Assembly: GCA_013695335.1 (NCBI GenBank)
Contig: JACDAR010000159.1
Span: forward strand, 1-45,414
Source: Rubrobacter sp.
Lineage (GTDB): Bacteria > Actinomycetota > Rubrobacteria > Rubrobacterales > Rubrobacteraceae
Reading direction: 5' to 3'
Length of the DNA: 45,414 nt
Made by a program: the position numbers and the translations under genes. The notes under the pieces are model-generated. The model saw nothing but the letters and a program-made list of their open reading frames with translations, was not told the origin of the DNA and searched no databases. This document shows, one piece after another, positions 39,276-45,414 of this stretch (the first letter of the stretch is position 1; each line of letters begins with the position of its first letter).

Positions 39276-39591
39276 GGATTTCGTCAGGGAGAGCAAAGAC
39301 GGGGTCTTGCTGAACCTCCGGGTCTCGCCGCGGTCAAGGAACACGTCGCTCGATGGGCTGTACGGCGGCTCTGCTCTGAAAGTCCGGATCTCCGCTCCAC
39401 CAACCGACGGCCGGGCCAACGCCGAGTTGAAGGATTTTCTGGCAGGTATCTTCGACGTAGCCCCTTCCAAATTCGAAGTCGTCAAAGGTACGTCAAGCAG
39501 GGACAAGGTCGTGTTCGTACGTGGTGTGCGGGAGGCGGATATCCGGAGCCGACTCCCGGGCTTGCTCAATCAACCGCAGTCAGAGAGATAA
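39268..39591 (+). CDS. DUF167 (YggU) family protein
   Basis: VLLNLRVSPRSRNTSLDGL..ALKVRISAPPTDGRANAELKDFLAGIF.VAPSKFEVVKGTSSRDKVV; 8-nt overlap with divIVA. Confidence 0.9.
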   Translation: MAEDFVRESKDGVLLNLRVSPRSRNTSLDGLYGGSALKVRISAPPTDGRANAELKDFLAGIFDVAPSKFEVVKGTSSRDKVVFVRGVREADIRSRLPGLLNQPQSER

Positions 39592-39613
39592 GAAGGGGAA
39601 AGGCAGGTTCTTC

Positions 39614-40549
39614 GTGATCGGGAAGATACAAAGGGTGCCGCTCCGCGAGGTGTGGAAGCACGAGGCGCTCGATTTCACCACCTGGCTTCAGGGGAACCTG
39701 GACGTGGTCAGCGACGAACTGGGCATCTCTATCACGGGTGCGGAGCGCGAACGGGCGGCGGGCGACTTCAGCGTGGACCTCGTCGCGGAGGATGAGTCGG
39801 GCAACCCGGTGGTGATCGAGAACCAGTTGGAAAAGAGCAACCACGACCACCTGGGTAAATTGCTCACGTATGCGGTCGCCATCGGCGCCGATACAGCCAT
39901 CTGGATAGTCTCAGAGGCGCGCCCGGAGCACGTGAACGCCATCTCCTGGCTCAACGAGTTCTCTACGGTCACTTTCCATCTGGTTAAAATGGAGGCCATA
40001 AAGGTGTCTGACTCACCCCCGGCGGCGCGGCTGACGCAGGTCGTCGGGCCGAGCGAAGAGATTCGAAAGATCGGCGAGACCAAGAAGGAGTGGGAACGAC
40101 AGGATCTCAGATATCGGTTCTGGACGGAGCTGCTGGAAAAGGCTCGCCACAAGACGAAGCTGCACGCTAAGAAATCGCCCATCCGGCGTAACTACATCGG
40201 TAGTGGCTGGGGCGGCTCAGGCAAGCGCGGTCTCGGCTTTCGCTACGTGATCCGTCGCCACGACGCGCAGGCGGATCTCTACATTTATGGCGGCAAAGAC
40301 AGCGATGAGCGGAACGAGGCCATCTTCGACAGCCTTGCCGCGTCCAAGGACGAAATCGAGAGCAGGTTTGGCGGGAAGCTCGATTGGCAACGCCTGGAAG
40401 ATAAACACGCCTGCCGAATCGTGGCGACGATCTCGTTGGGCGGTCTGCGCGACGAAGAACGCTGGCCGGAGATCCAGGACGCCATGATCGACAACATGAT
40501 CCGTCTTGAGAAAGCCTTGAGACCGCACATCGCAAAGCTGCGGGTATAG
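39614..40549 (+). CDS. DUF4268-like protein with putative PD-(D/E)xK-type nuclease region
   Basis: FSVDLVAEDESGNPVVIENQLEKSNHDHLGKLLTYAVAIGADTAIWIV resembles D...ExQ nuclease-fold cores; C-terminal half resembles DUF4268. Confidence 0.7.
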   Translation: MIGKIQRVPLREVWKHEALDFTTWLQGNLDVVSDELGISITGAERERAAGDFSVDLVAEDESGNPVVIENQLEKSNHDHLGKLLTYAVAIGADTAIWIVSEARPEHVNAISWLNEFSTVTFHLVKMEAIKVSDSPPAARLTQVVGPSEEIRKIGETKKEWERQDLRYRFWTELLEKARHKTKLHAKKSPIRRNYIGSGWGGSGKRGLGFRYVIRRHDAQADLYIYGGKDSDERNEAIFDSLAASKDEIESRFGGKLDWQRLEDKHACRIVATISLGGLRDEERWPEIQDAMIDNMIRLEKALRPHIAKLRV

Positions 40550-40587: not shown

Positions 40588-41472
40588 ATGGTGGAAGGAT
40601 TCGAGGTAACTTCGGGGGAGTCTGGCGAGCGCCTGGATCGCCTGTCGGCCAGGCGGTTCGATGTCAGCCGCAACGTCGCGCAACGCCTGATCCGGAACGG
40701 CTCGTTGCGGGTTGACGGAATAGCGGTTTCACCTTCCTACCGCGTACAGGCGAACGACAGCATCGAGGCGGAGATACCCGACGATACGCCACAGCCGGAG
40801 GACATCCACGTCCCGATCCTCTTCGAAGACGAACACCTGATCGTGGTGGACAAGCCCGCCGGATTGGTAGTCCATCCAGGCGCGGGCAACCCCTCCGGTA
40901 CGCTGGTGAACGCTCTCCTCGAACTGGGAATCTCGGGCGGCGAAGATCCCACGCGGCCAGGCATCGTCCACCGCCTGGACCGCGACACGTCCGGGCTGAT
41001 GGTGGTGGCGAGGGGCGAGCCAGCCTACTCGGCGCTGGTCGAGATGCTATCTTCGCGGCGGGTTAGGAGGATTTACAGGGCGATCGTGGTCGGTCAAGGA
41101 CTTCCGACGACGGGCACCATCGACTCGCCTGTGGGCCGCGACCCGGATAATCCGACCCTCATGGCCGCAGGGGTTGGGAAGCGAGCCGTCACGCACTTCG
41201 AGACGTTGGGTGAAGCCGGGGGATATACGATGCTCCGGGTGCGGCTGGAAACGGGGAGGACGCATCAGATACGTGTCCACATGAGCGCCATCGGCCACCC
41301 GGTATACGCTGACCCGCTGTACGGGGATGCAGTCGAGGGCACGCGGCTGTGGCTGCACGCCGAGAGGCTGGCATTCCGGCATCCGGTGAGCGGTGATGAC
41401 GTGAAGTTCGAGGCAGAGATACCTGATGATCTGAAACGGTCAGCAAGTTCGCTCGGCTTCTTGACTGATTAG
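40588..41472 (+). CDS. rluD: RluA/RluD family pseudouridine synthase
   Basis: S4 domain, IVVDKPAGLVVHPG, PGIVHRLDRDTSGLMVVAR, RLETGRTHQIRVHM. Confidence 0.95.
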   Translation: MVEGFEVTSGESGERLDRLSARRFDVSRNVAQRLIRNGSLRVDGIAVSPSYRVQANDSIEAEIPDDTPQPEDIHVPILFEDEHLIVVDKPAGLVVHPGAGNPSGTLVNALLELGISGGEDPTRPGIVHRLDRDTSGLMVVARGEPAYSALVEMLSSRRVRRIYRAIVVGQGLPTTGTIDSPVGRDPDNPTLMAAGVGKRAVTHFETLGEAGGYTMLRVRLETGRTHQIRVHMSAIGHPVYADPLYGDAVEGTRLWLHAERLAFRHPVSGDDVKFEAEIPDDLKRSASSLGFLTD

Positions 41473-41489: not shown

Positions 41490-41789
41490 TCAGCGCATCA
41501 CGCGAACGAAATAGAACGTGAGCGTCGCAGTTCCGGCTCCGGCTAGCAGGAGGGTGGAGAGGCCGCCAACCGAGACGACAACCCCGGCGATGGGGGCTCC
41601 CGCGCCGGCTGCCACGCCCATCGCCACCTCGCCGAGGCCCTCCGTGCGGGGGTGCAGATCCTGCGTGACAGAAGCGGCGAGCAGCGCGCCCGCCGTCCCA
41701 CCAGCGGCGAGGCCGATACTGCCGATCGCTGTCGCGACCGCCAGTACGGCGAGCGTCCGGCGTCTGATCTCAGCTTCGTCTTGCTTCAT
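41490..41789 (-). CDS. Small hydrophobic membrane protein (~99 aa)
   Basis: MKQDEAEIRRRTLAVLAVATAIGSIGLAAGG...: 2-3 predicted TM segments; overlaps the end of the NAT gene by 20 nt. Confidence 0.6.
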   Translation of the reverse strand: MKQDEAEIRRRTLAVLAVATAIGSIGLAAGGTAGALLAASVTQDLHPRTEGLGEVAMGVAAGAGAPIAGVVVSVGGLSTLLLAGAGTATLTFYFVRVMR

Positions 41790-42684
41790 CAGCGATGCTC
41801 GTTCTCTCTGCGGTGAGAATTTCTCGCAACTTTGTCTCATCTTCCGGTGCGAGCGTGATGTTGAAAGTTTCGCGGAGCGCCTGTATCGCTTCGTTCTCGG
41901 ATAAGCCTCGCTTATGCGACGTTCCATCTGGATATTTGGAGATGAAGGTGTTTCCGCCCAGCGTGTACCTGACGTTCGGCTTGACCATTACGGCTCTCGG
42001 CTGGGTTACGAACGGCGAGTCTGGATGGGTCGCCGTGTAATGGTTGTAGACCACGTAATCTATGAAACGCTGCGGTTCTTGTGTGAAGGAATAGAGGTCC
42101 ATCCAGCCTTCAGCCTCGGGAGAGCGCAGCCGCCACGAACCGTCATCCTGTTGCGCGAGGCCGTAGGTCCAGCCGCCCTGGCGCGAGACCGCGCCGTCCT
42201 CGAACGGGATCGGCTCCAGAAGCGTCGCCCCGAAACCGACATCCGCAAGCCACTCCGTTTCCCCAGCCTCGACGATCAGCAACATGTGGGTGCGGGCAGC
42301 CTGTACCCGGCCTGCCAGCCGCCTCACCTTGAACCCGAGACACTCCAGCAAGGCCGAAAACAGTAGGTTGTGCTCGAAGCAGTACCCGCCTCGCCCCTGG
42401 TGAACCAGCTTATCCTGCACATCATCCAGCCACAGGGAGATGCCGTGTTTCAGCACCACGTTCAGGTTCTCGAACGGGATGCTGTCTGCGTGGGCGCGGT
42501 GTAGTCTATGCAGCGTCTCCGCATCGGTGCGGAGGTCTCCGCTGTACCCCACGCGGGCAAGGTAAGAGTCTACGTCTAGCTTTCCAACGTCCCACTCGTT
42601 GCTTGATCCGCTGTTTTCGGAATGGATACGCCGATCTGAAGTGTTCACTTGAGAATCCTCCGGGTCGTCTCGAATGGTCTTCAT
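41770..42684 (-). CDS. Arylamine N-acetyltransferase
   Basis: HADSIPFENLNVVL, catalytic Cys in QGRGGYCFEHN, His in ARTHMLLIV, Asp in LADVGFGATLLEPI. Confidence 0.94.
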   Translation of the reverse strand: MKTIRDDPEDSQVNTSDRRIHSENSGSSNEWDVGKLDVDSYLARVGYSGDLRTDAETLHRLHRAHADSIPFENLNVVLKHGISLWLDDVQDKLVHQGRGGYCFEHNLLFSALLECLGFKVRRLAGRVQAARTHMLLIVEAGETEWLADVGFGATLLEPIPFEDGAVSRQGGWTYGLAQQDDGSWRLRSPEAEGWMDLYSFTQEPQRFIDYVVYNHYTATHPDSPFVTQPRAVMVKPNVRYTLGGNTFISKYPDGTSHKRGLSENEAIQALRETFNITLAPEDETKLREILTAERTSIADEARRS

Positions 42685-44066
42685 TTCCGCGCCAACCTGT
42701 CTGGTGCCTCGGTGGCGTCGCGGATGTTCGGGGTGAGGTTGTGAGGGTCTTGATCCGTATCGTCTATCCCAAAACCGACGATCCGCTCCGGGTAAACCCG
42801 GATGATCGTCATGTCAGGCTTATCTATTGCTTCAGCGTGGCCGCGGATTTCGAGGCATCTGACACGCCACGGATGGCGCGATGTGATGTCGTCCACGACG
42901 AACGCGGCCCGCCCGTTGGCCGCCACGTTGCGGAACTTGCGGCTCGATGCCATGTTGAAGCCCCGGATATCTATCGCCGCGACATCGGGGTTGTAATGAA
43001 AACCGACCGGGCTGACCTGAAGCGGGCCGTTCGGCTGGACAGTCGCGAGCCTTCCCAGAGTCTGTGACTCCAGGTAGTCGAGTTCTGCCCGCGTGAAAGG
43101 TGTTGGACGCTGCGTGACGAGGAGCGTCTTGCCTACGGTGTCGCGGGACTCTATGGCGGCGTGAGCTTCGGCAGCCTGCTCAAGTGGGAAGATCTGGCCG
43201 ACCACCGGTCGCAAATGGCTCTCCGCCGCATCCGAGAGCGCGGCCTCGGTGTGGGCACGCGCCTCCTCTGGTGTCGGCCGCCACAGGCCGATCTTCTTCA
43301 CGCCGCGTTCTTCAGCATCCTCATCCGAGATGCCTGCCCATTCGCCGCTCGCCATCCCGAAGCTGACCATACGGCCGCCGCGTTCGAGCAGCCCGAACGC
43401 TGACCTTCCGATCTCACCCCCAACCCCGTCAAAGACTACGTCAATGCCCGCGAAGGCTTCACTAATCTGATCCTCCCACCCGGATTGCAGGTAATCCACT
43501 GCAACATCCGCGCCCAACTCGCGCGCTCTGGCTACCTTCCGTTCGCCACCGGCGACGGCGGCAACCCTTGCCCCGGCGGATTTTGCGAGCTGGACGAGCA
43601 GGGAACCGAGTCCACCGGCGGCTGCTTCGACCAGTACGCGATCTCCTTCGCACAAAGATGCAACCTGCATCAGAGCCTTCGCCGTGCGCCCATCCGCGAG
43701 CAACGCAGTCGCGACATCGAGTCCCAGGTTCTCTGGAACCGGAACCAGGCTATCTGCATCCAGGGCGGCGAGGCTCGCGTACCCGCCAGACCCGCCCGTG
43801 ATGGCGATCACCCGTTTACCTATCAAAGATTCGTCAATATCCGGCCCGACTGAAACTACGGTGCCGCCGACGCCGTTGCCAGGGATCATGGGCAGCTTCG
43901 CCTCGAAAGGACCGAAACCATTCGCCCGAAACTGGGTGTCGATAAAGGTGATGTTGGCGTAGGCTACTTCGATCATCGCCTGCCCCGGTCCCGCCACGGG
44001 ATCCGGAGCGTCTCCAGCCACGAGTGCCTCGGGGCTGCCGAATTCCTCTAGCCATACGGCTTTCAT
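42681..44066 (-). CDS. Fusion: quinone oxidoreductase-like MDR protein + PPOX-class F420-dependent split-barrel domain
   Basis: N-term MKAVWLEEFGSPEAL...GDRVLVEAAAGGLGSLLVQLAKSAGARVAAVAGG..VVFDGVGG; C-term FTRAELDYLESQTLGRLATVQPNGPLQVSPVGFHYNPDVAAIDIRG..SRKFRNVAANGRAAFVVDD; one uninterrupted ORF. Confidence 0.88.
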   Translation of the reverse strand: MKAVWLEEFGSPEALVAGDAPDPVAGPGQAMIEVAYANITFIDTQFRANGFGPFEAKLPMIPGNGVGGTVVSVGPDIDESLIGKRVIAITGGSGGYASLAALDADSLVPVPENLGLDVATALLADGRTAKALMQVASLCEGDRVLVEAAAGGLGSLLVQLAKSAGARVAAVAGGERKVARARELGADVAVDYLQSGWEDQISEAFAGIDVVFDGVGGEIGRSAFGLLERGGRMVSFGMASGEWAGISDEDAEERGVKKIGLWRPTPEEARAHTEAALSDAAESHLRPVVGQIFPLEQAAEAHAAIESRDTVGKTLLVTQRPTPFTRAELDYLESQTLGRLATVQPNGPLQVSPVGFHYNPDVAAIDIRGFNMASSRKFRNVAANGRAAFVVDDITSRHPWRVRCLEIRGHAEAIDKPDMTIIRVYPERIVGFGIDDTDQDPHNLTPNIRDATEAPDRLARK

Positions 44067-45373
44067 CTGGGATCACTTCCTTCTGGGTCGATGGTTCTCG
44101 TTTGTTTCGGGCTTTTCTCCTGGTCGAGGGGGTTGGAGATCTCATCCCGGTCGAGCCTGGGGATCAGGATCGCTGCCGCAGCCAGAAAACCGGGTACGAT
44201 CCCGGCTACTAGAAAGATGGGCGTCAAGCCGAACGCCGCACCAGCCGGACCAGCTATCGCCATCGAGACTGGCATCAAAGCCAGCGAGACGAAGAAATCC
44301 AGGCTCGAAACACGACCGCGCAGCCGGTCTGGAACCCGGCGTTGCAGGAGGGTTCCCCATATCACCGTCGCCGCCGAGAAGGTCGCGCCGACGACGAACA
44401 TGGCGGCGCAGATCACCCACAGCGAGCCCGCGAAACCAACGACAGCGAACGGCAGCGCCCCCAGTCCCCACAGAAAAATCATCGCGGTCAGATACCTGCG
44501 GGGCAGACGCCGGGCCGAGATTCCGAGTGCCCCAGCCGCTCCGCCAACCCCGAAGGCAGCGAGCGCGAGGCCATAATCCTCTGCGCCACCGCCGAGGTTG
44601 TCCCTGATTGCAAACGGCAGCAACACCTCCATAGGGCCGATGATGAGCAACACGATCAGGAGCGCAAACAGAAGCGTCGCCCACAACCAACTCGTTCTCC
44701 GCACGTAGCCGAAACCTTCGCGTAGGTCAGCGAAGACCGCCGCCGCGCCTGTTTCATCCGAGGCGATCCGAGGTTTCTGTTTTCGGACGTTCATCGCCAC
44801 GAGGCAGGAGGCGGAGATCAGGTACGTCACGCTTCCCGCGAGTATGGCGAGGCCGGGTGAGAGCGACGCGACCACGACGCCCCCGAGCACGGGTCCGGCT
44901 GCCTGCTGGGCGAGCGGGCGGAGCGTCCCTTCCAGGCCGTTAGCCGCAAGTAGTTCGTCCTCTGGGAGAAGGTGGGGCAGGAGCGCAGTATATGAGGGAA
45001 TAAAGAACGCCTCGCCGGCCCCTATCACCAACCCGCCAATCGCCAGGTGCCAGATCTCCAGCGCGCCCGTGAGCGAGAGTACGCCGAGGACTAGCAGGAC
45101 TGTCGCACGCGTGAGATCGGAGGCGAGCATGACGAGGCGTTGGGGCAGCCGGTCGGCGGCGACCCCGCCGAACAGCACGAAGGCGACGAGGCCGACGCCG
45201 AACAACGCGGTAACGAGCGAGAGTTCCGCTGGCCCGCCGCCAAGAGATATTACCTGCCACGCCAGGGCGACCAGCCACAGCCCGCTACCGGCAAGAGAAA
45301 TCGCGAGTCCAGTCCACAGCAGGCGGAAGTCGCGGTGCCGCAGCGGCATCAAGGGCCGCAGCGCTGCGCTCAT
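44063..45373 (-). CDS. MFS transporter (EntS/MFS_3-like exporter)
   Basis: LRHRDFRLLWTGLAISLAGSGLWLVALAWQV..GGVAADRLPQRLVML...; ~12 hydrophobic segments; start taken at ATG 45373 (TTG 45400 possible). Confidence 0.88.
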   Translation of the reverse strand: MSAALRPLMPLRHRDFRLLWTGLAISLAGSGLWLVALAWQVISLGGGPAELSLVTALFGVGLVAFVLFGGVAADRLPQRLVMLASDLTRATVLLVLGVLSLTGALEIWHLAIGGLVIGAGEAFFIPSYTALLPHLLPEDELLAANGLEGTLRPLAQQAAGPVLGGVVVASLSPGLAILAGSVTYLISASCLVAMNVRKQKPRIASDETGAAAVFADLREGFGYVRRTSWLWATLLFALLIVLLIIGPMEVLLPFAIRDNLGGGAEDYGLALAAFGVGGAAGALGISARRLPRRYLTAMIFLWGLGALPFAVVGFAGSLWVICAAMFVVGATFSAATVIWGTLLQRRVPDRLRGRVSSLDFFVSLALMPVSMAIAGPAGAAFGLTPIFLVAGIVPGFLAAAAILIPRLDRDEISNPLDQEKSPKQTRTIDPEGSDPR

Positions 45374-45414
45374 CCGTCGCGGTGTCCGGCGGGAAGTCAA
45401 CCGGAATATCCCGT

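Follow-up and report, generated by a model that had tools for sequence, protein, structure and literature searches.

Genes of the locus

The DNA considered here, called the window below, is the entire contig JACDAR010000159.1 of GCA_013695335.1, the assembly of an uncultured Rubrobacter sp., 45,414 nucleotides in length (contig C7 of G000, a 2.9-Mb assembly in 373 contigs that is 91% complete). At its far end lies a compact run of minus-strand genes that probably is the 3' part of a defence operon: a major facilitator superfamily (MFS) exporter, a quinone oxidoreductase (QOR) fused to a PPOX class F420-dependent oxidoreductase, an arylamine N-acetyltransferase (NAT) and a short frame at the 3' end. 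All four open reading frames (ORFs) that a first-pass annotation had read from the letters alone are present. Domains were called with Pfam and NCBIfam profiles scored against curated cut-offs, and these bear out the exporter, the fusion and the NAT of that annotation; its fourth gene, a "small membrane protein", turned out to be what a deletion has left of a second MFS exporter. Since the contig ends at 45414, the 5' part of the operon is cut off. The locus was compared with those of two congeners, G001 and G002 (the latter being the metagenome-assembled genome (MAG) Rubrobacter sp. MGR_bin401), with 40 genomes of the family and 397 of the phylum, and with 80 named NATs and their 81 co-directional neighbours.

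The first 320 residues of the fusion (43107..44066, minus strand) constitute a zinc-less member of the medium-chain dehydrogenase/reductase family, identified as a quinone oxidoreductase by its ADH_N (PF08240) and ADH_zinc_N (PF00107) domains and its QOR fold; this half also matches PF13602 and carries the NADPH motif AAAGGLG, and its score for the PIG3 subfamily TIGR02824 is under the cut-off (168 bits vs 296.8). Residues 321-461, together with the stop codon (42681..43106, minus strand), make up the PPOX half, with a PNPOx_N domain, which belongs to TIGR04023 by a score of 142.3 bits at a cut-off of 85.6. In the AlphaFold model of the fusion (mean pLDDT 89), the first ~320 residues are matched by quinone reductases in a Foldseek search, with a target-normalised TM-score of 0.90 to the E. 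coli QOR (1qor), and the remainder past about residue 320 is a separate, beta-rich part.

The NAT (PF00797, Acetyltransf_2; 220.1 bits at a cut-off of 22.8) has its Cys-His-Asp triad intact (C102/H133/D148 when counted from the ATG), with the RGGYC motif, and its nearest solved structures include bacterial NATs, for example 4guz. Its start most likely is the GTG at 42648, so that the gene would extend over 41770..42648 (minus strand), the alternative being the ATG at 42684. The GTG stands 8 nt after a putative Shine-Dalgarno sequence GGAGG (42657..42661, minus strand), which is aligned with the GGGAGG that precedes the homologous start in G001 (ATG 9184). Given this conserved Shine-Dalgarno sequence and the GTG start, the 4-nt overlap between the fusion and NAT that was originally proposed probably is instead a gap of 32 nt.

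The 4-nt overlap between the exporter and the fusion (ATGA, 44063-44066), on the other hand, is real, and it recurs in G001 despite an exporter of another family there. The exporter of the window, MFS1 (44063..45400, minus strand; PF07690 with 136.9 bits, and PF05977), resembles Tet(V) but scores 441.8 bits with tet_MFS_V, under the cut-off of 640 for the Tet(V) tetracycline exporters; its possible starts are TTG 45400 and, as the first ATG, 45373, and upstream it is truncated by the contig end. The same slot in G001 is held by a non-orthologous pump of the DHA2 type, nearest to the phenicol exporters FexA and FexB, albeit far below cut-off (449.4 bits for FexA, where 900 are required).

A deletion remnant of a second exporter

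The ORF at 41490..41789 (minus strand, 99 residues) matches no family in Pfam or NCBIfam. It consists of the N-terminal 39 and the C-terminal ~60 residues of an MFS protein that, at its full length of 422 residues, occupies the same place in G001 (L040:9992-11260), with 86% identity over residues 1-43 and 80% over residues 343-403; the middle, about 895 bp, is missing in frame. At the join (41674..41685, minus strand) the two flanking alignments with G001 overlap by a 12-nt microhomology that reads GCTGCTCGCCGC in the window and GCTACTCGCCGC at the matching 3' site in G001. As judged from the sequence, the remnant thus is the product of a loss of ~0.9 kb at this microhomology and not a gene of its own, and the fact that its two ends have diverged little suggests that the loss was recent. 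An independent small membrane protein would be conserved as such in relatives, which is not the case here, and we reject the notion of an accessory subunit. The ATG that creates the formerly noted 20-nt overlap of NAT and the remnant is ATA in G001, so this overlap is not conserved.

Could the deletion be an artefact? The missing middle gave no match on any other contig of the G000 assembly, and a general misassembly can be dismissed because this is the sole large in-frame loss along 22 kb collinear with G001; an assembly error confined to the join may nonetheless be the cause.

Insertion between pyrR and rluD

On its 3' side the operon is bordered by a convergent gene for an RluD-type pseudouridine synthase (40588..41472, plus strand; TIGR00005, 272 bits). 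This border is the same in G001, where the complete order is pyrR, then ABM, FMN_red, DHA2, fusion, NAT and MFS, then rluD. In G002, pyrR and rluD are adjacent and the operon is lacking, which indicates that the operon is an insertion. Next to rluD in the window is a DUF4268 gene (PF14088, 100.9 bits; 39521-40549, plus strand) that is apparently missing from the otherwise collinear G001.

The last genes on the pyrR contig of G000 (C160) are those for a PF17648 protein, an FMN reductase and, cut off after its start, a DHA2 pump, the latter two coupled by an ATGA overlap; identity to the G001 counterparts is 69% for the FMN reductase and 72.5% for the pump, over its first ~40 aligned residues. 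Because the ends of C160 and C7 face each other by synteny, the operon of G000 probably extends upstream of the window to include another pump as well as an FMN reductase. The full set would then run PF17648, FMN reductase, DHA2, contig gap, Tet(V)-like MFS, QOR::F420-PPOX fusion, NAT and MFS remnant. The FMN_red genes are of the flavodoxin-like family PF03358 and match no named NCBIfam FMN_red family.

The first-pass annotation had staked its proposal of a system that reduces, acetylates and exports partly on conservation of the neighbourhood in relatives, and the fusion and NAT do stand together in G001, near FMN_red and DHA2. They are adjacent and in the same order in both genomes at a dS of about 0.9-1.0, with dN/dS values relative to G001 of 0.148 for QOR, 0.138 for PPOX and 0.20 for NAT; these are near the value of 0.16 for RluD and show that all three are constrained by purifying selection. 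The additional FMN reductase and DHA2 exporter of G001, matched in G000 by those at the end of C160, fit the logic of reduction and export; the single-substrate order of that proposal is hypothetical.

The fusion itself is rare. It is intact across the junction in two of the 397 phylum genomes, G000 and G001, both of this genus. A decayed form is found in another genus (L041, G032:C42, 1613-2152, plus strand), where, after a stop, a degenerate QOR tail of the last ~20 residues precedes PPOX in frame. In the phylum sample the fusion thus is not a widespread protein. Two further arrangements of the same families were seen. G000 holds a second set (L045, G000:C82, 9778-11565, minus strand) in which PF17648, a TIGR04023 PPOX and a quinone reductase are separate neighbours, with a divergent TetR-like gene. 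At L202 (G223:C97, 2209-2628, minus strand), a quinone reductase that shares 75% identity with the window QOR over residues 1-110 is joined in frame to its last ~35 residues, and this remnant of an internal in-frame deletion stands in a run of PF17648, QOR remnant, two glyoxalase-like genes and PPOX.

Related modules and the surroundings of NAT genes

A varying module recurs in the family, drawn from an AEC permease, PF17648, in some cases a TIGR04023 PPOX, mostly a MarR regulator, FMN_red, a FexA-like DHA2 pump and an F420-dependent LLM oxidoreductase. Its FMN_red-DHA2 core was found in about 15 of the 40 family genomes, in six genera (L198-L201, L204, L228-L239, several with internal 4-nt overlaps), and G000 has its own copy on contig C241. 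The module shares with the operon the PF17648, FMN_red, DHA2 and PPOX parts and the 4-nt couplings; unlike the operon, it is devoid of the QOR fusion and of NAT and includes MarR and LLM genes. The resemblance of the 5' part of the operon (PF17648, FMN_red, DHA2) to this module suggests that the operon is a locally assembled derivative in which PPOX was fused to QOR and NAT was added.

NAT genes are present in four of the 40 family genomes and in 49 of the phylum sample. Among the co-directional neighbours of the named NATs, FMN_red (six cases, always directly after NAT) and LacI regulators (also six) are jointly the commonest, and PPOX accounts for two. The FMN reductase directly 3' of NAT occurs in Micromonospora, Saccharopolyspora and a Cellulomonas MAG (L087, L088, L092, L119, L120, L134), in L087 with a LacI regulator upstream of NAT. 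A Pseudonocardiaceae MAG has PPOX and NAT with a 4-nt overlap and a divergent MarR gene. Elsewhere in G002, NAT is followed by PPOX beside an ORF of 1006 residues that, by eye, resembles a Tn3-type transposase; in G034, a MarR gene is divergent from DUF6069, FMN_red and NAT, on a contig whose end overlaps the NAT-PPOX contig of G002 by 165 bp at 98.8%. In G075 a PPOX gene lies among purine-synthesis-like genes. Small reductases do go together with NAT, though as a minority pattern; a general linkage of NAT with PPOX is not borne out by what is a handful of cases.

A putative operon for reductive detoxification and efflux

Taken together, the insertion site, the constrained enzymes and the recurring partner families make it fairly probable that an operon for defence against xenobiotics, by reductive detoxification and efflux, was inserted between the pyrR and rluD genes of a Rubrobacter-like lineage, and that the window contains its 3' part. 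If the genes are co-transcribed across the contig gap, three reductases, namely an NADPH-dependent FMN flavoprotein, the NADPH-dependent QOR and the presumably F420H2-dependent PPOX, would reduce quinones, enones, coumarin-like compounds and other toxic electrophilic aromatics; the FMN reductase would possibly also reduce azo or nitro compounds. NAT would cap an arylamine or aminophenol, whether produced or imported, and the MFS pumps would expel the parent compound or the product. The chemistry has precedents: FDOR-type F420-PPOX enzymes promiscuously use F420H2 to reduce dyes as well as quinones, coumarins and enones (PMC8498797), and FMN-dependent azoreductases double as NAD(P)H quinone oxidoreductases (PMC4051601). 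Synthesis of F420 in this lineage is likely because both congeners carry cofD, which is above cut-off in 31 of the 40 family genomes.

Several observations weigh against this interpretation. The cofD gene was not found in the 91%-complete G000, and the join of C160 to C7 is inferred from synteny. Most of the family modules are without NAT, in line with its presence in so few family genomes, and elsewhere the majority of NAT genes stand without a reductase beside them. No FDOR-B enzyme is known to turn nitro or azo groups into amines (PMC8498797), and FDOR chemistry does not itself produce arylamines. Finally, one exporter slot differs between the congeners and the other is deleted in G000, hence no specific exporter is obligatory.

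How far the genes share substrates is the point on which the alternatives differ, and their likelihoods overlap with that of the favoured reading, since the latter does not fix whether substrates are shared. It is quite conceivable, if short of probable, that the locus is a loose defence island in which an antibiotic pump, a quinone reductase and an arylamine acetylase are held under one promoter and deal with different toxicants. The presence of the pyrR-rluD insertion in two of the three congeners, the exporter swapped in one slot and deleted in the other, the decay of the fusion in G032 and the reshuffling of modules across the family all look like such an island; however, the same few families pair repeatedly and the fusion-NAT order is kept, which argues for some functional link.

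That link need not be one ordered pathway for one substrate class, in which a nitro, azo or quinone-imine aromatic would be reduced to an arylamine, N-acetylated and exported as the acetamide. We regard this as rather unlikely: the adjacency of reductases, NAT and pumps, the independent NAT/FMN_red and NAT/PPOX pairs, and the affinity of the G001 exporter to FexA and FexB, weak as it is, are in its favour, but the FDOR-B enzymes are not known amine producers (PMC8498797), the FMN_red step is assumed from family membership, and the exporter slot is exchangeable. Still more doubtful is a dedicated bacterial reduce-conjugate-export operon in which the product of the NADPH QOR::F420H2 reductase would be passed to the NAT and MFS pump encoded with it. 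A role in endogenous or secondary metabolism is improbable: NATs often occur within biosynthetic clusters (PMC11213898), as do F420-PPOX proteins (PMC10697411, PMC8498797), and the nat gene of M. tuberculosis accompanies hsaA-D (PMC2764864), but this operon is flanked by the housekeeping genes pyrR and rluD/divIVA, and neither hsa nor biosynthetic core genes were seen in or beside it, in the window or in G001, which leaves the biosynthetic-cluster and cholesterol-operon readings without supporting genes.

Should the reading as a xenobiotic-defence operon be correct, it would provide a shared, testable context for F420-dependent PPOX proteins and bacterial NATs, two families with mostly unknown natural substrates. 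The analysis also points to a recurring module of PPOX, FMN reductase and DHA2 pump in the Rubrobacteraceae.

Comparison with known systems

The literature searched held nothing pertinent on TIGR04023, on the composition of the operon or on NAT of Rubrobacter, and no description of the Rubrobacteraceae module was found there. The closest relatives of the individual parts are the actinobacterial F420H2-dependent FDOR/PPOX enzymes (PMC8498797), to which the PPOX half is linked as a TIGR04023 protein and from which it differs in being fused to a quinone reductase, and the azoreductase superfamily (PMC4051601), which shares the flavodoxin-like PF03358 with the FMN_red of the operon, the latter falling in no named subfamily.

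As to whole systems, the M. tuberculosis nat-hsaA-D operon likewise places NAT within an actinobacterial redox operon, but its cholesterol catabolism genes are absent from the Rubrobacter operon. The benzoxazolinone clusters FDB1 and FDB2 of Fusarium (PMC4726666) are transferred xenobiotic clusters that combine transporters with conjugation of an aminophenol by a NAT-family enzyme; they differ in being fungal, in comprising two unlinked loci with other first steps, in N-malonylation and in the lack of an F420 enzyme. In M. smegmatis, nat is co-transcribed with an oxidoreductase (MSMEG_0308) and the AraC regulator MSMEG_0307, the products reportedly interacting in preliminary tests (PMC4266540). 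That operon has its own regulator, another oxidoreductase and no exporter, PPOX or QOR, and no AraC-family gene lies between nat and a reductase in the operon of the window or in G001. The earlier statement that no named system has this set of genes therefore holds for the exact composition, which did not turn up in the literature searched, and has to be tempered as to the idea, since an operon of NAT with an oxidoreductase, as in M. smegmatis, and clusters of NAT with transporters are already known.

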